Shown: piece after piece, positions 15,527-63,978 of the stretch
Numbering within the stretch: the first letter of the stretch is position 1
Layout: the number at the start of each line of letters is the position of its first letter
Source: Pseudomonadota bacterium
Lineage (GTDB): Bacteria; Pseudomonadota; Gammaproteobacteria; Xanthomonadales; Xanthomonadaceae
DNA length: 64,000 bases
Assembly: GCA_018241125.1 (NCBI GenBank)
Contig: JAFEEL010000020.1
Coordinates: forward strand, 1-64,000
Reading direction: 5' to 3'
Translations under genes and position numbers: made by a program
The notes under the pieces: model-generated
Told to the model about the DNA's origin: nothing
Database searches by the model: none
The model's input: the letters and a program-made list of their open reading frames with translations, nothing else

Positions 15527-15776
15527 GGCAGTTCTGACCGTTCGCAACTTGCCCGATGAAGTGCACCGCGCCTTGCGCGTACGCGCCGCCCAGCATGGGC
15601 GCAGCACCGAGGCGGAGGTGCGTGCCGTGCTGGAAGAAGCGGTCAAGCCGCGCGGACGCCTGAAGCTGGGGTCGCTGCTGGCCGACATCGGCCGCAAGAT
15701 GAAGCTCACCGATGCGGAGGTGGCGTTGCTCAACCGGCGCGATCCGGCACCGCCGCGCCCGATGGACTTCGAATGA
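15525..15776 (+). CDS. FitA-like ribbon-helix-helix antitoxin
   Basis: An 83-residue antitoxin. The N-terminal ribbon-helix-helix part is TVRNLPDEVHRALRVRAAQHGRSTEAEVRAVLEEAV, typical of FitA/VapB DNA-binding antitoxins; the C-terminal tail would neutralise the PIN toxin. The ATG at 15525 is preferred because GGAG lies eight bases upstream and the family starts at MAVLTVRNLPD. The stop overlaps the toxin start (ATGA). Confidence 0.87.
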   Translation: MAVLTVRNLPDEVHRALRVRAAQHGRSTEAEVRAVLEEAVKPRGRLKLGSLLADIGRKMKLTDAEVALLNRRDPAPPRPMDFE

Positions 15777-16195
15777 TCCTGCTCGACACCAAGGTGATCT
15801 CTGAGCCCCTGCGCGCATCGCCATCGCAGCCGGTCGTGGCCTGGATCGATGCGCAGCCTCTGGAAACCCTCTTCCTGTCCGTGGTCACGATCGCCGAGCT
15901 GCGCTTTGGCGTGGCCCGCCTGCCTTCCGGTCGCCGGCGCAACGGCTTGATCGAGCAGCTGGAACACCGGGTGCTGCCGGCTTTCATCGGCCGCGTGCTC
16001 AACTTCGACCTCGCGGCAACCCAAAGCTACGCGACCGCAATGGCCAAGGCACAAGCACAAGGCTTGGCGGTAGGCGTGGCCGACGGATTCATCGCCGCCA
16101 TCGCCGCTGCCAATGGCTTGAGTGTGGCCACCCGCGACACCTCGCCGTTCACGGCGATGGGGGTCGCGGTCGTCGATCCGTGGGCTGGCGAATAG
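15773..16195 (+). CDS. FitB/VapC-like PIN-domain toxin
   Basis: A 140-residue PIN-domain ribonuclease toxin. Acidic active-site residues expected for the fold are present: D5 in MILLDTKVISE, the Glu of TIAELRFG, the Asp of GVADGFIAAIA and the Asp of ATRDTSPF. The usual Asn after the first Asp-Thr is Lys here (LDTK rather than LDTN), which could weaken metal binding. Translationally coupled to the antitoxin. Its stop codon is the first base pair of a multi-hairpin element. Confidence 0.87.
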   Translation: MILLDTKVISEPLRASPSQPVVAWIDAQPLETLFLSVVTIAELRFGVARLPSGRRRNGLIEQLEHRVLPAFIGRVLNFDLAATQSYATAMAKAQAQGLAVGVADGFIAAIAAANGLSVATRDTSPFTAMGVAVVDPWAGE

Positions 16196-16300
16196 GGAAC
16201 CGCTGACGTATCAGCGTTTCCCGCACGCCGTGGAAGGCGTGGCCGTGGATCCATCACGCAAGTGATCGATCCACGGGAATCAGGTTCGGGCATGAACCCG
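16195..16300 (+). repeat. Multi-hairpin element, copy A (3' of PIN toxin)
   Basis: Hairpins in gene-sense order: S1 16195-16222 (arms GGGAACCGCTGA and TCAGCGTTTCCC, loop CGTA); S2 16224-16241 (CACGCC, loop GTGGAA, GGCGTG); S3 16244-16275 (outer CGTGGAT with ATCCACG, inner ATCAC and GTGAT, loop GCAA, a GNRA tetraloop); S4 about 16283-16300 (weak; CGGG and CCCG around CATGAA). No S5 is seen. S1 starts at the last base of the toxin stop codon. This is the shortest of four copies. Confidence 0.75.
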
Positions 16301-16337
16301 GCTCAAGCGCAACACAGTCCGCGAGTTCCAGTCGTAC

Positions 16338-22137: not shown

Positions 22138-23230
22138 ATTGTAGCTTTCCGGGGTGAGAGCGGGAGCTACAACCGCGTAGGATGCCACTCAACCGCGGGG
22201 CTGATTGTAGCTTTCCGGGGTGAGAGCGGGAGCTACAACAGCTGCACGCCGCTGAGCCGCGCGACCAGCATTGTAGCTTTCCGGGGTGAGAGCGGGAGCT
22301 ACAACGCGTGGCAATCGCTTCGTCGAGCGCGCGCGATTGTAGCTTTCCGGGGTGAGAGCGGGAGCTACAACGCTCGGGCGATGTACGAGCGGGCTGAGTC
22401 GATTGTAGCTTTCCGGGGTGAGAGCGGGAGCTACAACCGTGACCGCTGCGGTGTCTCATGCTCTCGTATTGTAGCTTTCCGGGGTGAGAGCGGGAGCTAC
22501 AACGCAGTCGTAGATGCCGATGCACGCCTTGCCATTGTAGCTTTCCGGGGTGAGAGCGGGAGCTACAACTGTCTCTAGCGCATGACTAGAACTGCGCGGA
22601 TTGTAGCTTTCCGGGGTGAGAGCGGGAGCTACAACCACGGGCCAGCCGCAGACGTGTCGAGATTGATTGTAGCTTTCCGGGGTGAGAGCGGGAGCTACAA
22701 CATGGATCAAGCGCGGTGCCTGATCAAAGCGATTGTAGCTTTCCGGGGTGAGAGCGGGAGCTACAACAGGCAGAGGTCAAGAACGCGGACAAGAACGATT
22801 GTAGCTTTCCGGGGTGAGAGCGGGAGCTACAACGGGTGAAACGCCGATGACCGATGCCGAGATATTGTAGCTTTCCGGGGTGAGAGCGGGAGCTACAACG
22901 TACTTGCGCGCTGCGACGACCGATCCGAGATTGTAGCTTTCCGGGGTGAGAGCGGGAGCTACAACGCTGAGCCGCGCGACCATGCGGTCCAGCTGATTGT
23001 AGCTTTCCGGGGTGAGAGCGGGAGCTACAACAAAAGCCCGCGATGGGGAAGAAAGAGGAGGAATTGTAGCTTTCCGGGGTGAGAGCGGGAGCTACAACCT
23101 GCGGAAGGTGCAGGTCTGTGGGCGGTGTATTGTAGCTTTCCGGGGTGAGAGCGGGAGCTACAACGGAATGGCGCCATGCACATCCAGGCTCGCCATTGTA
23201 GCTTTCCGGGGTGAGAGCGGGAGCTACAAC
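22138..23230 (-). CRISPR. CRISPR array, 17 identical repeats, 16 spacers
   Basis: Repeats of 36 bp start at 22138 and recur every 66 bp. Spacers are 30 bp, except the fourteenth at 23032-23062, which is 31 bp. All 17 repeats are identical, including both terminal ones. In crRNA orientation (minus strand) the repeat starts GTTGTAGCTCCC and ends AAGCTACAAT, close to the N. meningitidis type II-C repeat. Orientation is set by this match, by the tracrRNA anti-repeat and by the left-hand terminator. Each repeat ends in TACAAT, a -10-like box that could drive a crRNA from every unit, as in Neisseria. Spacers 2 and 13 share 17 bases. Confidence 0.98.
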
Positions 23231-23271
23231 GATTTTTTTGGACAGGGGACAAGCCCCTGTCCAAAAAAATC
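23231..23271. repeat. Perfect long palindrome abutting the last CRISPR repeat
   Basis: Arms GATTTTTTTGGACAGGGG (23231-23248) and its complement (23254-23271) around ACAAG. It touches the leader-side end of the array. The stem is followed by A residues on both strands, so it lacks the U run of a terminator. It may be a mobile palindrome that has replaced or interrupted the array leader, or a structure limiting read-through. The rest of the stretch to 23545 shows no gene. Confidence 0.85.
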
Positions 23272-23545
23272 GACGCACTCCGTGCGGTCAGCAGAAGAAA
23301 CAAAAAAACCACGGCGCGCCACGTCAAATTGCTCGCGTCGCAGCGAGCACGGGGTCGCGTCTTGTATCGACACATCACGCAAGCACGCGCTGTGCGCCTA
23401 TTCCTCGGCGGCAGTCGCCGGAGCTTTGGATGTGGAAGTGGCCTTGAAGCGCGCAACGCAAAGCCGAATCGGGTTTGTGTGAGGGTGCATCGAGTCACGG
23501 ATACAGTGGCAATCGTGCGCCATATGGATCATTATGACCATAACG

Positions 23546-32880: not shown

Positions 32881-33783
32881 TCAGTTTTTCCCGCGCAGCC
32901 GTTCGAGCACGCCGTCGAGCGCGTCCAGCCCGTGGTAGTGGATCACCAGCTTGCCGCGCCCGCCGCGTCCGTGCTGGATGGCCACCCGCGAGCCGATGGC
33001 CTCGGACAGCTCGCGCTCGAGCGCGACGACGTCGGCATCGGCGCGGGCCAGCGTTTTTTTCGCCGGCGGTTGCGGCTTGGCCGCCTGCGCCAGTTGCGCG
33101 CGGCGCTCGGTCTCGCGCACCGACCAGCCTTGCGCGGCGGCCTCGTTGGCCAGCGCCTGCGCGAAGTGCGTTGGCAGGGTGAGCAGGGCGCGGGCGTGGC
33201 CCATTTCCAGTTGGTGGCCGGCCAGCAATTGCCGGATCGCTTCGGGCAGTTCGAGCAGGCGCAGCAGGTTGGACACCGCCGCGCGCGAGCGCCCGACCGC
33301 CTCGGCGGTCTGCTGGTGGGTCAGGCCGAACTCGTCGATCAGGCGGGTCAGCGCCTGGGCTTCTTCCAATGGATTGAGATCCTCGCGCTGGATGTTCTCG
33401 ATCAGCGCCATCGCCACCGCCGAGCGATCATCGACCTCGCGCAGCACCACCGGGACTTCAGTCAGCCCGGCGATCTGCGCGGCGCGCCAGCGGCGTTCGC
33501 CGGCGATGATTTCGTGGGTGGCCTTGGATCCTTTCACCGGCGCCACGGCGCGCACCACGATCGGTTGGATCAAGCCCTGCGCGCGGATCGAATCGGCCAG
33601 TTCGGCCAAGCGCTCGGCGTCCATCCCGGTGCGCGGCTGGTAACGACCCGGGCGCAGCGCCGTCACCGGCAGCGTGTGCGCGGACGCGCCGCTGGCCGTC
33701 GCATCGGGCTCGGGCGCGGCCTTGCCGGCCGGGCCGAGCAACGCGTCCAGTCCGCGACCCAAGCCACGCTTCTTGGCTGCCAT
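32881..33783 (-). CDS. parB: Chromosome partitioning protein ParB
   Basis: Centromere-binding CTP switch protein of 300 residues. LPVTALRPGRYQPR leads into the N-terminal CTPase domain with GERRWRAAQIAG. Next come the helix-turn-helix LTHQQTAEAVGRSRAAVSNLLRLLELP and a C-terminal dimerisation domain. It follows parA, with a multi-hairpin element in the gap. No parS site (TGTTTCACGTGAAACA type) was seen in the window. Confidence 0.97.
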   Translation of the reverse strand: MAAKKRGLGRGLDALLGPAGKAAPEPDATASGASAHTLPVTALRPGRYQPRTGMDAERLAELADSIRAQGLIQPIVVRAVAPVKGSKATHEIIAGERRWRAAQIAGLTEVPVVLREVDDRSAVAMALIENIQREDLNPLEEAQALTRLIDEFGLTHQQTAEAVGRSRAAVSNLLRLLELPEAIRQLLAGHQLEMGHARALLTLPTHFAQALANEAAAQGWSVRETERRAQLAQAAKPQPPAKKTLARADADVVALERELSEAIGSRVAIQHGRGGRGKLVIHYHGLDALDGVLERLRGKN

Positions 33784-33806
33784 GTCAGGTTTTCTCCGAT
33801 GTTGTT

Positions 33807-33957
33807 GGTTGGAAAAGGGCCATCCTGCCCTTTTCCAACTCGCCCGATCCGGTACATGCCCGGATCGGGCTCCGACGAATCAAGCACTCTCGTGCTTGAT
33901 TCGCGAGCGATCCGTCCACGCATCGCGGTAGCAGGTCGTTGTTCAACGCCCTGCTAC
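33807..33957 (-). repeat. Multi-hairpin element, copy C (parA-parB gap)
   Basis: In gene-sense order on the minus strand: S1 33957-33928 (arms GTAGCAGG and CCTGCTAC with inner CGTTG/CAACG) spanning the parA stop codon; S2 about 33925-33906 (GCGAT, loop with GTGGAC, ATCGC); S3 33903-33876 (CGAATCAAGCAC, loop GAGA, GTGCTTGATTCG); S4 33870-33842 (GCCCGATCCGG, loop GCATGTA, CCGGATCGGGC); S5 33840-33807 (TTGGAAAAGGGC, loop AGGATG, GCCCTTTTCCAA). The element ends 24 bases before the parB start. Confidence 0.85.
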
Positions 33958-34737
33958 TTCCTTTTTGCGTTCGCGCCCGCGGCGCACGATCTCGCCGGCC
34001 AGCCCCAAATAGGCGATGCCGCCGCGCGAGCCGCGATCATAGGCGATGATGCTCTGGCCGTGGCTGGGCGCCTCGGCCAGACGCACGTTGCGCGGGATGA
34101 TGGTGCGCAGCACGCGCTCGCCGAAGTGCGATGCCAGGTCCGCCGACACGCCGTTGTCGAGGTTGTTGCGCAGGTCGTACATGGTGCGCACGATGCCCTC
34201 GATCACCAGCGCCGGGTTCAGCCGCTTCATCAATGCGTCGATGGTGCCCAGCATCGCGGTCAGGCCTTCGAGCGCGAGAAACTCGCACTGCGTGGGCACC
34301 AGCACGCCGTCGGCGGCAGCCAGCGCGTTCAAGGTCAGCAGCGACAGCGACGGCGGGCAGTCGATGATGATGTAGGCGTAGCGCTCGCGCAGCGGCTCCA
34401 GCGCCTGTTTCAAGCGCTGCTCGCGGCCGGACTCGTCCATCAGCCGGATCTCGGCGGCGGTGAGGTCGCCGTTGCCCGGCAGGATGTCGTAGTGTTCCGG
34501 GCTGCGCTGGAGCACCTGTTCCAGCGGCGCTTCATGCAGCAGCAGCTCGCAGGTGGTGGCCTCCAGTTCGCGCTTGTCGATGCCCGCCGCGGTAGTGGCG
34601 TTGCCCTGCGGGTCCAGATCCACCAGCAGCACTTTCGCGCCGGTATCGGCCAGCGCCGCGGCGAGATTGACCGAGGTGGTGGTCTTGCCCACCCCACCTT
34701 TCTGGTTGGCCACTGCGATGATCCGCGCCTTGCCCAT
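33943..34737 (-). CDS. parA: Chromosome partitioning ATPase ParA
   Basis: Deviant Walker-type ATPase of 264 residues that moves ParB-bound origins. It has ANQKGGVGKTTTSVNLA, LLVDLDPQGNAT and IIIDCPPSLSLLTLNAL. The start MGKARIIAVANQKGG is the family start. Its last four codons and stop lie inside the first hairpin of the multi-hairpin element. rsmG lies 22 bp upstream, so rsmG-parA-parB is probably one operon, as in many bacteria near the origin of replication. Confidence 0.97.
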   Translation of the reverse strand: MGKARIIAVANQKGGVGKTTTSVNLAAALADTGAKVLLVDLDPQGNATTAAGIDKRELEATTCELLLHEAPLEQVLQRSPEHYDILPGNGDLTAAEIRLMDESGREQRLKQALEPLRERYAYIIIDCPPSLSLLTLNALAAADGVLVPTQCEFLALEGLTAMLGTIDALMKRLNPALVIEGIVRTMYDLRNNLDNGVSADLASHFGERVLRTIIPRNVRLAEAPSHGQSIIAYDRGSRGGIAYLGLAGEIVRRGRERKKEVAGR

Positions 34738-48068: not shown

Positions 48069-48496
48069 TCTGCGGGAAGCTGATTGATCGGTCGGGTTTC
48101 ATTTTCCTCCCCCGCAAGCAGCGGAAGGGGCTTGTGTGGGAGGGCCGCGCCCGGCCCGATCGACGCCTTCCCCCGCCTGCGGGGTGCTGAGGCCCGTTTA
48201 CGAACTGCCTGTGGCAGTTCGTGCGCCGAAGAACGCCCGACAGGGCCGGAGGATTGAGGTGAGGGTGCTTTCGGCGCTTGTGGCGTCCCTGCCCCCATCC
48301 CAGCCTTCCCCCGCAAGCGGGGGAAGGGGCAAGTGCGTCACGCCGGGCGACCCCCTCCCCCGCTTGCGGGGGAGGGTTGGGGTGGGGGCGTTCTCGCGCC
48401 GAAATCCTGCCCCCAGCCCCGTCTTCCCCACCAGGAGGGGAAGGAGCCATCGACGCCTGCCATCACGGGCGGCCCGTGGGATAGTCTGCACTTGCC
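48069..48496. repeat. Intergenic block of GC palindromes (hemB-aroE)
   Basis: No gene is seen in these 428 bp. Four or more members of the CCCCCGCAAGCGGGGGAAGG palindrome family occur (about 48107, 48170, 48305, 48355). The segment 48192-48250 is a near-identical inverted copy of 52671-52730 and contains the perfect hairpin CGAACTGCC-TGT-GGCAGTTCG. AAGCTGATTGATC is duplicated at 48058 and 48078 directly after hemB. Confidence 0.85.
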
Positions 48497-49598: not shown

Positions 49599-49722
49599 AG
49601 TGGCCGGCCACGCTGCGCAACGAGCCAGTCCGCGAGGGCGCCGGCAAGCGGATGCGCCGCGCAGGACCGCCAGCCGGGGCGATCCGGTTGCTGGAAAGCC
49701 GCCTGTCGTCGCGGCCGTGCCA

Positions 49723-49868
49723 GGGATCCTCTGAACAAGTTCAGACGATCCCGCAGTGCATGGACGCACCGCCGCGAACAACGACGCAAGTCGTTGATTC
49801 GCGAGCACCGAGTCCGCACATGTACCTGACTCGGTGCGCCTGAAGAAGTCCAGGATGGACTTGTTCAG
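49723..49868 (+). repeat. Multi-hairpin element, copy D (3' of YkgJ gene)
   Basis: S1 49723-49752 (GGGATC and GATCCC outside, TCTGAAC and GTTCAGA inside); S2 49756-49769 (GTGC, loop ATGGAC, GCAC); S3 49773-49803 (CGCGAA/TTCGCG outside, AACGAC/GTCGTT inside, loop GCAA); S4 49805-49837 (GCACCGAGTC and GACTCGGTGC around CGCACATGTACCT); S5 49840-49868 (CTGAAGAAGTCCA, loop GGA, TGGACTTGTTCAG). It has the same order and orientation relative to the upstream gene as the other copies. Confidence 0.85.
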
Positions 49869-49875
49869 ACCATCC

Positions 49876-50586
49876 CTAGTGGTTGCCCAGCTCCGTGATC
49901 GCTTGCATCAGCCGGGAAAATACGAACATCCCGAGGAAGCCGACCATGCACAATGCGATCAGCGCCCGCCACCATGCACACCGGAAGAAGCGTTTGAGGC
50001 TGATCGTCCAGTAGACCGGAACGAACACGAGCGCATAGAAGACACCCACCCAGACGGCAAGGTTCAGGAAAACCGACGCCATCAGCGAGAACACCACCAT
50101 CCAGCCCAGCACGGCTCCGCTGAGCGCGTAACAGACAAACGCCACGACTTCGACGATGTCCTGCTGGCGGGTTACGCAGAAAAACCGCAGCAGGTAGGCC
50201 ATGGGCAGGGTGTAGGCGATCAGCGCGACGGACAGCCATTGCGAATGCGCCCCGTCCTGCGAGCCCGAATACGTGCTCAAGGCACTGTTGACGAGGACCA
50301 GCAGGCCGAGCATGACGAGCATGAACCGCAGCGGGCCCACGTGGTCCACGCGTCTACCTTCGACGTAGTCGCGGGCGAGCGTGCCGCATTCCGGGAAGAT
50401 CGCCCGCAGGGTCCTGAGCGAGGGTCGGTCCAGCGAGGTGATGTCGCTCAGCGCGCCATCCACCAGGGCGCGCAGCTGCAACCGACGGTAGCGATGGTCC
50501 TGCCCGCAATGTCCGCAGTAACGGGTGGAGGGCGGCATGGGCTCGCCACAATTCATGCACGTCGCCGGGGAGCCCTCGGGTTCCAT
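49876..50586 (-). CDS. DUF3667 membrane protein with zinc ribbon
   Basis: A 236-residue protein with an N-terminal zinc ribbon (CMNCGEPMPPSTRYCGHCGQ, residues about 10-29). A cytoplasmic stretch with LDRPSLRTLRAIFPECGTLARDYVEGRRVDHVGPLRFMLVM follows, then five or so membrane helices. This matches the DUF3667 family; its function is unknown. It ends seven bases from multi-hairpin copy D, towards which it converges. Confidence 0.88.
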   Translation of the reverse strand: MEPEGSPATCMNCGEPMPPSTRYCGHCGQDHRYRRLQLRALVDGALSDITSLDRPSLRTLRAIFPECGTLARDYVEGRRVDHVGPLRFMLVMLGLLVLVNSALSTYSGSQDGAHSQWLSVALIAYTLPMAYLLRFFCVTRQQDIVEVVAFVCYALSGAVLGWMVVFSLMASVFLNLAVWVGVFYALVFVPVYWTISLKRFFRCAWWRALIALCMVGFLGMFVFSRLMQAITELGNH

Positions 50587-55258: not shown

Positions 55259-55735
55259 CAAGCCGCGATCGAGCTTCCCGTTCGTGGCCAGGCGCGGATC
55301 GAGGCCGAAGGCCGAGGCCGCGATCGGATATCCCGTTCGTGGTGAGGCGCGGATCGAGGCCGAAGGCCGAGGCCGCGATCGAACCATTGTTTGTTTCAGA
55401 ACGAGCAACGGCAAACCGTTGTGGTTCGACACGAGCCGGCTCGAACTCCGTTCTCGACCGGCTCGGCTCACCACGAACGGTGACTTGGAGGCCGCGATCG
55501 GATATCCCGTTCGTGGTGAGGCGCGGATCGAGGGCGCAGCCCGAGGCCGCGATCGAACCATTGTTTGTTTCAGAACGAGCAACGGCAAACCGTTGTGGTT
55601 CGAGACGGACGTGCTCGATCTTCGATCTCGACACGTCCTCCTCACCACGAACGGTGACTTGGAGGCCGCGATCGGATATCCCGTTCGTGGTGAGGCGCGG
55701 ATCGAGGGCGCAGCCCGAGGCCGCGATCGAACCAC
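55259..55735. repeat. Tandem 174-bp repeat with swapped hairpin stems
   Basis: The only content of the 581 bp between ampE and erpA. Two full units start at 55381 and 55555, with the head of a third at 55729 and a partial unit before. The units are nearly identical except for one hairpin: unit 1 pairs GAGCCGG with CCGGCTC and unit 2 pairs GGACGTG with CACGTCC, while the flanks stay the same. These are inverted copies of the element at 269-420. Confidence 0.9.
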
Positions 55736-63791: not shown

Positions 63792-63813
63792 CTCCCGCTT
63801 GCAACCTAAGGAG

Positions 63814-63963
63814 TCGCTGAACAAATCCATCGTGGATTTGTCAGCGATCGCCCAGCCCGGTACACGCCCGGACTGGGCTCACACGGATCAATCACTTGCG
63901 TGATGGATCCGTGACCACGCCATCCATGGCGTGGGGGGAAACGCTGATAAATCAGCGTTTCCC
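63814..63963 (-). repeat. Multi-hairpin element, copy B (3' of right-edge gene)
   Basis: Gene-sense order on the minus strand: S1 63963-63936 (GGGAAACGCTGAT and ATCAGCGTTTCCC); S2 63934-63915 (CCACGCCAT, GG, ATGGCGTGG); S3 63913-63882 (CACGGATC/GATCCGTG outside, ATCAC/GTGAT inside, loop GCAA); S4 63878-63850 (GCCCAG/CTGGGC and CCGG/CCGG, loop GCGTGTA); S5 63847-63814 (TCGCTG/CAGCGA outside, ACAAATCCA/TGGATTTGT inside, loop CGA). It is the most regular of the four copies and is followed by a terminator. Confidence 0.88.
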
Positions 63964-63978
63964 TAATGCGACCGCCGC

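Follow-up and report, generated by a model that had tools for sequence, protein, structure and literature searches.

The window, that is, the whole stretch of 64,000 nucleotides of a Xanthomonadaceae draft genome that was analysed, contains four copies of an element made up of successive hairpins, S1 to S5 (Table 1). Genes were called by a home-made codon-usage caller trained on the window, and copies were matched with R1, a covariance model built on 14 copies. The initial annotation had described five hairpins in all four elements. Three copies carry them, but in the 16196 copy the 3' end has decayed. The borders first proposed for the 63810 and 49724 copies were corrected by the target duplication, and the flanks of the 33802 copy hold no recognisable duplication. 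The minus-strand gene that ends at 49876 has its TAG stop in the CTAG flank of the 49724 copy, and the TAG at 16193-16195, bordering the 16196 copy, is the stop of the gene at 15773-16195. All four arrays fold far beyond their dinucleotide shuffles (z of -13.7, -8.3, -10.0 and -6.7; 0/200 shuffles equalled each).

Table 1. Copies of the element in the window, with the hairpins and target duplications of the 63810 copy
Feature	Position	Strand	Basis and remarks
Element copy, subfamily A, complete	63810-63962	-	R1 match of 149 bits; borders from the 4-bp duplication
Target duplication CTAA, sense 5' side of the 63810 copy	63963-63966		Sequence
Target duplication CTAA, sense 3' side of the 63810 copy	63806-63809		Sequence
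Hairpin S1, 63810 copy	63936-63963	-	Fold; holds inverted-repeat end 1, GGAAACGCTGA; outermost pair takes one duplication base
Hairpin S2, 63810 copy	63915-63934	-	Fold; hexaloop ATGGAT, whose outer A-T can pair to leave TGGA
Hairpin S3, 63810 copy	63882-63913	-	Fold; GCAA tetraloop
Hairpin S4, 63810 copy	63850-63878	-	Fold; loop GCGTGTA
Hairpin S5, 63810 copy	63814-63847	-	Fold; 3' arm enters inverted-repeat end 2; loop CGA (family mostly GGA)
Element copy, subfamily C	49724-49875	+	Flanks CCAG (49720-49723) and CTAG (49876-49879), one mismatch
Element copy, diverged subfamily B	33802-33953	-	Between parA (33943-34737, minus strand) and parB (32881-33783, minus strand)
Element copy, subfamily A, 3' end lost	16196-16328	+	S1-S3 clear, S4 partial, S5 gone

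The loops reported for S2 (TGGA) and S3 (GCAA or GAGA) were present on the sense strand as claimed. The GGA loop of S5 was confirmed in the 49724 and 33802 copies, but not in the 63810 copy, nor in the 16196 copy, from which it is absent. The stems differ yet stay paired, as had been noticed before: over the 14 copies, 95.6% of the cells were paired and 16 of 34 pairs showed two-sided changes.

The 33802 copy separates parA from parB and has rewritten the C-terminus of parA, which now reads VAGR and ends inside the element (33943-33953). Other repeats were also seen in the window. Another recurring inverted repeat, CCTCACCACGAACGG ... CCGTTCGTGGTGAGG, has arms 26-28 nt apart and occurs at 306-371, 55464-55523 and 55640-55695. 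Positions 23230-23272 hold a perfect 19-nt hairpin with a T run (CGATTTTTTTGGACAGGGG), and an inverted repeat of 39 nt that resembles a REP lies at 48291-48389.

Family members and their hosts

When the own genome (3.07 Mb in 67 contigs) was searched at the DNA level, the 63814, 33807 and 49723 copies gave 17, 41 and 2 matches, respectively, each including itself. R1 gave 81 matches at E<=0.01, among them 54 sense-strand places at E<1e-7; the remainder consisted of antisense echoes or fragments of these places, plus two weaker ones. A contig end cuts ten of the 54 places, and the count may therefore include a few elements two times. At least three subfamilies were distinguished: A (63810 and 16196), B (33802 and most others), which is the largest in this genome, and C (49724). 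The element is mostly 150-153 bp long and has no transposase gene inside. R1 matches of 149-155 bp made up 68/74 in alignment A2, 26/30 in A5 and 28/51 in A3, an alignment that includes contig-end cuts and nested REPs; the others measured 111-147 and 164-225 bp and were truncated, held a nested hairpin, or were shorter or longer variants.

Two short derivatives were observed in the own genome (G000), one of 83 bp (C33:105333-105415, L008) and one of 95 bp (C65:37571-37665, L168) by the length of the model match; both kept S1, S2 and S5, and S3-S4 were absent. Furthermore, 14 of the 52 own loci scanned (L006, L023, L024, L026, L032, L035, L037, L044-L047 and L050-L052) had a REP-like hairpin (CCTGCCCCCGCGCAGGCGGGGG type), some 23 bp long, nested in the S5 loop. 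It sits at a nearly identical point of the loop in A and B copies, as if one mobile hairpin had entered the loop of another repeatedly. The same genome has a gene resembling a REP-associated tyrosine transposase (RAYT) at L088:381-1091 (Y1_Tnp, PF01797, 51.4 bits; NF047646, 72.7 bits against a cut-off of 80), and the nested REP may be moved by its product.

The search of related genomes with a covariance model, which the initial annotation had proposed, brought out a large family with a wide set of members outside the own genome. At E<=1e-6, and with the own genome included in each count, R1 matched 48/149 relatives in 34/88 genera, 43/369 genomes of an even class-wide draw and 39/398 of a phylum sample. 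In the latter, a single family (f217) supplied 29 of the 39 carriers, and it is presumably zetaproteobacterial, judging from Mariprofundus titles. These counts rest on the R1 score, and one weak carrier that was inspected (G156, among the 43 of the class) proved false: its match (L331) was coding-like and had no hairpins. A scan of named genomes for the S3 pattern gave at least 96 stretches, and among the matches listed were Rehaibacterium terrae, Lysobacter chinensis, Dyella choica, Immundisolibacter, Chromatiales and Acidiferrobacterales MAGs, and the zetaproteobacterium Mariprofundus. Run on 80 of these loci, R1 yielded 108 matches at E<=0.001, echoes included; at L228 the match was confined to the S3 pattern itself. 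The architecture and the loops persist across Gamma- and Zetaproteobacteria, and the stems change with compensation. A plasmid blastn search with two elements as query returned no match.

Ends, target sites and IS5 transposases

The flanks were compared at 120 distinct places from the own and other genomes, with both flanks available for 112. The border 4-mers were identical in 57 of the 112 pairs, against 0-2 of 114 in outward-shifted controls, and 42 of the 57 were YTAR, i.e., CTAG, TTAG, CTAA or TTAA. The elements end in IS5-type inverted repeats, GGAANCTCTGAWCAA in the A and C types and CAGGYTGTTGARAAA in the B types.

A PF01609 search of 18 genomes found 56 matches in 16 of them, and 31 of the 56 loci entered a scan for ends with flanking duplication. 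At 8 of the 31, in 5 of the 18 genomes, a transposase gene lay within IS5-like ends and CTAG, CTAA or TTAG duplications (L086 in the own genome; L178 and L193 in G078; L181 in G026; L182, L195 and L204 in G090; L190 in G098). Other hits of the end scan, matching at 12-16 of 16, did not have the pattern GGNNNNTCTGA or CASGYTGTTGA; we treated them as chance or other repeats. The ends of the insertion sequences were close to those of resident elements in the own genome (subfamily C), G090 and G098, fairly similar in G026 and loosely similar in G078. For example, L086 ends in GGATGGTCTGATCAA and the C copy in GGATGGTCTGAACAAG; the corresponding pairs are GGAGGGTCTGAACAAG and GGAGGGTCTGAATAAG in G090, and CASGYTGTTGAGAA and CASKYTGTTGAGAA in G098. 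The three transposases tested (L086, L182 and L190) all belonged to IS5, with NF033581 scores of 361, 325 and 261 bits. We failed to find a transposase with B-type ends in the own draft genome, despite B being its largest subfamily, and the remaining 13 of the 18 genomes searched yielded no autonomous partner whose ends matched.

An empty site was found at one locus. The genes at the parA-parB junction (Pfam AAA_31/CbiA for parA; ParB_N/HTH_ParB/ParB_C for parB) adjoin without the element in all 11 relatives read, three of the same genus and eight further. R1 gave no match at the junction of these relatives, and its sole match, of 9.6 bits, lay elsewhere in L342. No parA ortholog was found in a twelfth relative (G004).

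Thus the element resembles a MITE: it is shorter than about 300 bp and carries no transposase gene, and it has inverted repeats, a duplication, an autonomous partner and an empty site. The IS5-type ends, the 4-bp duplications, the IS partners and the empty junction together argue strongly that the family is a non-autonomous, MITE-like transposon of about 152 bp mobilised by IS5, and we hold this part of our reading with high confidence. An IS5-family transposase supplied from elsewhere would recognise ends of 15-19 bp and insert the element at YTAR, giving the 4-bp duplication. S1 and S5, which carry the ends, would vary with the transposase used, and S2-S4 would retain their loops and lengths. 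The interior does not look like a leftover of a parent IS but like a conserved five-hairpin module, of which the 45 bp read at either end of the IS5 elements showed no sign.

Conserved hairpins and loops

In the 14-copy alignment, values as high as those observed were reached by 0/500 shuffles on four of five measures and by 10/500 on the fifth. Stems that change without compensation in a larger alignment would, according to the initial annotation, have refuted its view. They proved compensated. Alignment A4 was made from sequence only and held 43 of 45 elements (G141 and gam207 were left out, and retained in the loop counts of 45 and 38 elements); in S2-S4, 93.7% of the cells were paired and 21/27 pairs showed two-sided change. 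The covariation score was 0.423, compared with 0.135 (sd 0.009) for shuffles and at most 0.073 for slid controls; relatedness inflates such figures, and the effect size is large.

The loops were counted in a non-redundant set of 38 elements with less than 80% identity, from which L331, L333 and three truncated matches in L314 had been excluded; a loop length of six bases was set for S2 and one of four for S3. S2 was an ANGGAN hexaloop in 33/38, closed by a C-G pair in 31 of the 33. Both N positions were variable (the second was G in 14, T in 12, C in 4 and A in 3). S5 carried GGA in 32/38, mostly outside the ANGGAN register. The GNRA loop of S3 was found in 40/45 elements of the earlier set but in 27/38 of the non-redundant one. 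When G.T and A.C were treated alike by symmetric scoring, sense G.U exceeded A.C in S2-S4 by 30 to 9 (one-sided p 5e-4) and in all stems by 43 to 19 (38 elements). These cells may share ancestry, and counted once per pair in the covariance-model alignments (by helix, with three antisense rows dropped) the excess was 16 vs 10 in own copies and 20 vs 15 in others. Such an excess would be expected if the sense RNA, rather than the DNA or the antisense strand, is selected; since it is small when counted once per pair, we take it as support, not as proof.

Could these patterns have arisen in a plain MITE, whose hairpins persist by self-repair of palindromes and whose paired changes need no selection on RNA? 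In templated mutation at quasi-palindromes, one arm serves as the template for the other while the DNA is replicated. Among near-identical copies there are indeed single pairs in which both bases have changed and pairing is retained (S3 of L025; S4 of L013 and L024), and templated correction would yield these in one step. However, it would leave the loops unconserved, yet the S2 and S5 loops are kept on one strand, and it predicts no excess of sense G.U over A.C. We regard this explanation as unlikely, though it is the strongest of the competitors. The selection on RNA structure proposed by the initial annotation thus gained from the covarying stems and the conserved sense loops of the wider set, and the structure appears to be under selection; what did not survive is the fixed 3' element to which it had been assigned, for the element is mobile.

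GGA in hairpin loops is a CsrA site (SELEX consensus RUACARGGAUGU), and the ANGGAN hexaloop is a described contact of RsmE, according to a review (PMC7652899). S2 and S5 have the loop sequences of a CsrA/RsmA-binding RNA. By our tally, csrA was present in 41/43 carriers, compared with 313/369 genomes overall (Fisher p 0.025), a weak association because csrA is common anyway. A real carrier with no csrA match, G270 (a draft of 470 contigs, 95% complete), keeps the ANGGAN loop. In the proposed mechanism, transcription from neighbouring genes would read through the element, the sense RNA would fold, and CsrA/RsmA would bind the S2 (ANGGAN) and S5 (GGA) loops. The binding could tune the stability or the visibility of the transcript, and this tuning could help the element to be tolerated or to spread. 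A folded sense RNA that binds CsrA/RsmA is a tentative reading of the loops, and we place it well below the MITE-like nature of the family because the register of S5 mostly differs and G270 keeps the loop.

Gene context, known relatives and meaning

The 54 own places comprised 14 convergent, 10 sense, 12 antisense, 5 divergent and 13 undecided ones; the 120 combined places comprised 34, 24, 21, 12 and 29, respectively. The initial annotation had taken the elements for 3' elements in one orientation to the upstream gene. This held for the four window copies with our own gene calls, but not for the family of 54 places. Both orientations, a finding that the initial annotation itself had listed as refuting, occurred nearly evenly in the combined set (24 sense, 21 antisense), so a fixed 3'-UTR element was ruled out and no sense-strand 3'-UTR role at the host level is favoured.

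A transcription terminator or a protector of mRNA 3' ends kept by the host at gene ends would agree with the surplus of adjacent gene 3' ends over 5' ends at own places (60 vs 35) and of convergent over divergent gaps (34 vs 12). It does not agree with sense and antisense placement being about equal, with the junction that is empty in relatives (one locus) or with the copies inspected by eye, which had no T-run past the last hairpin. Moreover, much of the position is accounted for by the target. Of 126 adjacent gene 3' ends, 35 have their stop codon directly at the border and thus inside the flanking 4-mer, and 0 of 76 adjacent 5' ends lay within 1 bp of the border. The TAR of the target overlaps stop codons, which explains part of the 3' position. 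As YTAR includes the TAR stops, a GC-rich genome would offer the target largely at stop codons, and copies would then come to lie at gene 3' ends in either orientation. We consider the terminator or protector improbable. Least credible by far is an element of the REP/BIME type with a REP-associated tyrosine transposase as its mover. The RAYT-like gene of the own genome and the REP-like hairpins within S5 loops speak for it, but the nested REP seems to be an element in its own right, the pairing of the inverted ends, their similarity to IS5 ends and the target duplications all suggest a DDE transposase, and small single palindromes with no 4-bp duplication would be expected instead of five hairpins in about 152 bp with such duplications.

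The MITE-like transposon that we favour has a close published counterpart. MITEPsy1 of Pseudomonas syringae pv. phaseolicola is 100 nt long, has no coding sequence and was shown to transpose; it has the IS5-related ends GGAAGGTCTGAAAAAGCC and GTATCCTCTGAAAAAGCC and duplicates 4 nt, CTAG or YTAA, and its authors suggest that similar sequences are widespread (accessible part of PMC3189936). An IS5-related MITE with CTAG/YTAA duplications is thus already known, and in the text accessible to us MITEPsy1 is the closest known relative. Its two ends have the same GGTCTGA/CCTCTGA asymmetry as our GG-type elements. MITEPsy1 is shorter than the elements described here (100 nt vs about 152), and a hairpin architecture, covariation and GGA loops are unreported for it in the accessible part of that source; since the comparison covers the ends and the target, MITEPsy1 may be a short member of the five-hairpin family.

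Insertion sequences of the IS5 type (NCBIfam transpos_IS5_4, NF033581) share ends, the 4-bp YTAR target and host genomes with the element, but they are about 1.2-1.3 kb long and carry a transposase gene. REP/BIME elements with their RAYTs are likewise short palindromic high-copy repeats, but are moved by tyrosine transposases and are much smaller, 20-40 bp (as far as seen in PMC2817692, PMC3733652 and PMC8266576). CsrB, RsmY and RsmZ have hairpins with GGA in the loop as our element does, with the ANGGAN hexaloop in its S2; they are dedicated sRNAs of the host, whereas the element is dispersed, mobile and has two candidate sites (accessible part of PMC7652899). A known Rfam RNA was rejected: no match at the gathering score was obtained in the window or at seven loci, which gave just RF02271 at 21.5 bits (cut-off 120). 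The earlier statement that no named family has this layout agrees with the Rfam result, but a related MITE with similar ends and target has been published (PMC3189936). No five-hairpin IS5 MITE family and no CsrA-binding MITE was recognised in the literature searched, a search largely outside subscription papers and thus not proof of absence. The five-hairpin architecture, its broad conservation with swapping of ends and the GGA sense loops were not found in Rfam or in that literature.

Taken together, we propose that these elements may form an old lineage of non-autonomous transposons of Gamma- and Zetaproteobacteria that has its own conserved CsrA/RsmA-binding RNA and survives by exchanging ends borrowed from different IS5 transposases (probability about 0.4). 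It would be a mobile RNA decoy scattering CsrA sites through transcriptomes, not a decayed IS remnant. For the own genome, one covariance model annotates about 8 kb of repeats (54 places of about 152 bp each), and the family may account for some assembly breaks, as ten places lie at contig ends. More generally, the ends vary and the interior is conserved between classes, in a manner that looks RNA-like and strand-specific. This makes testable whether small bacterial DNA transposons are selected via the RNA they carry, and whether mobile sites rewire CsrA/RsmA networks.
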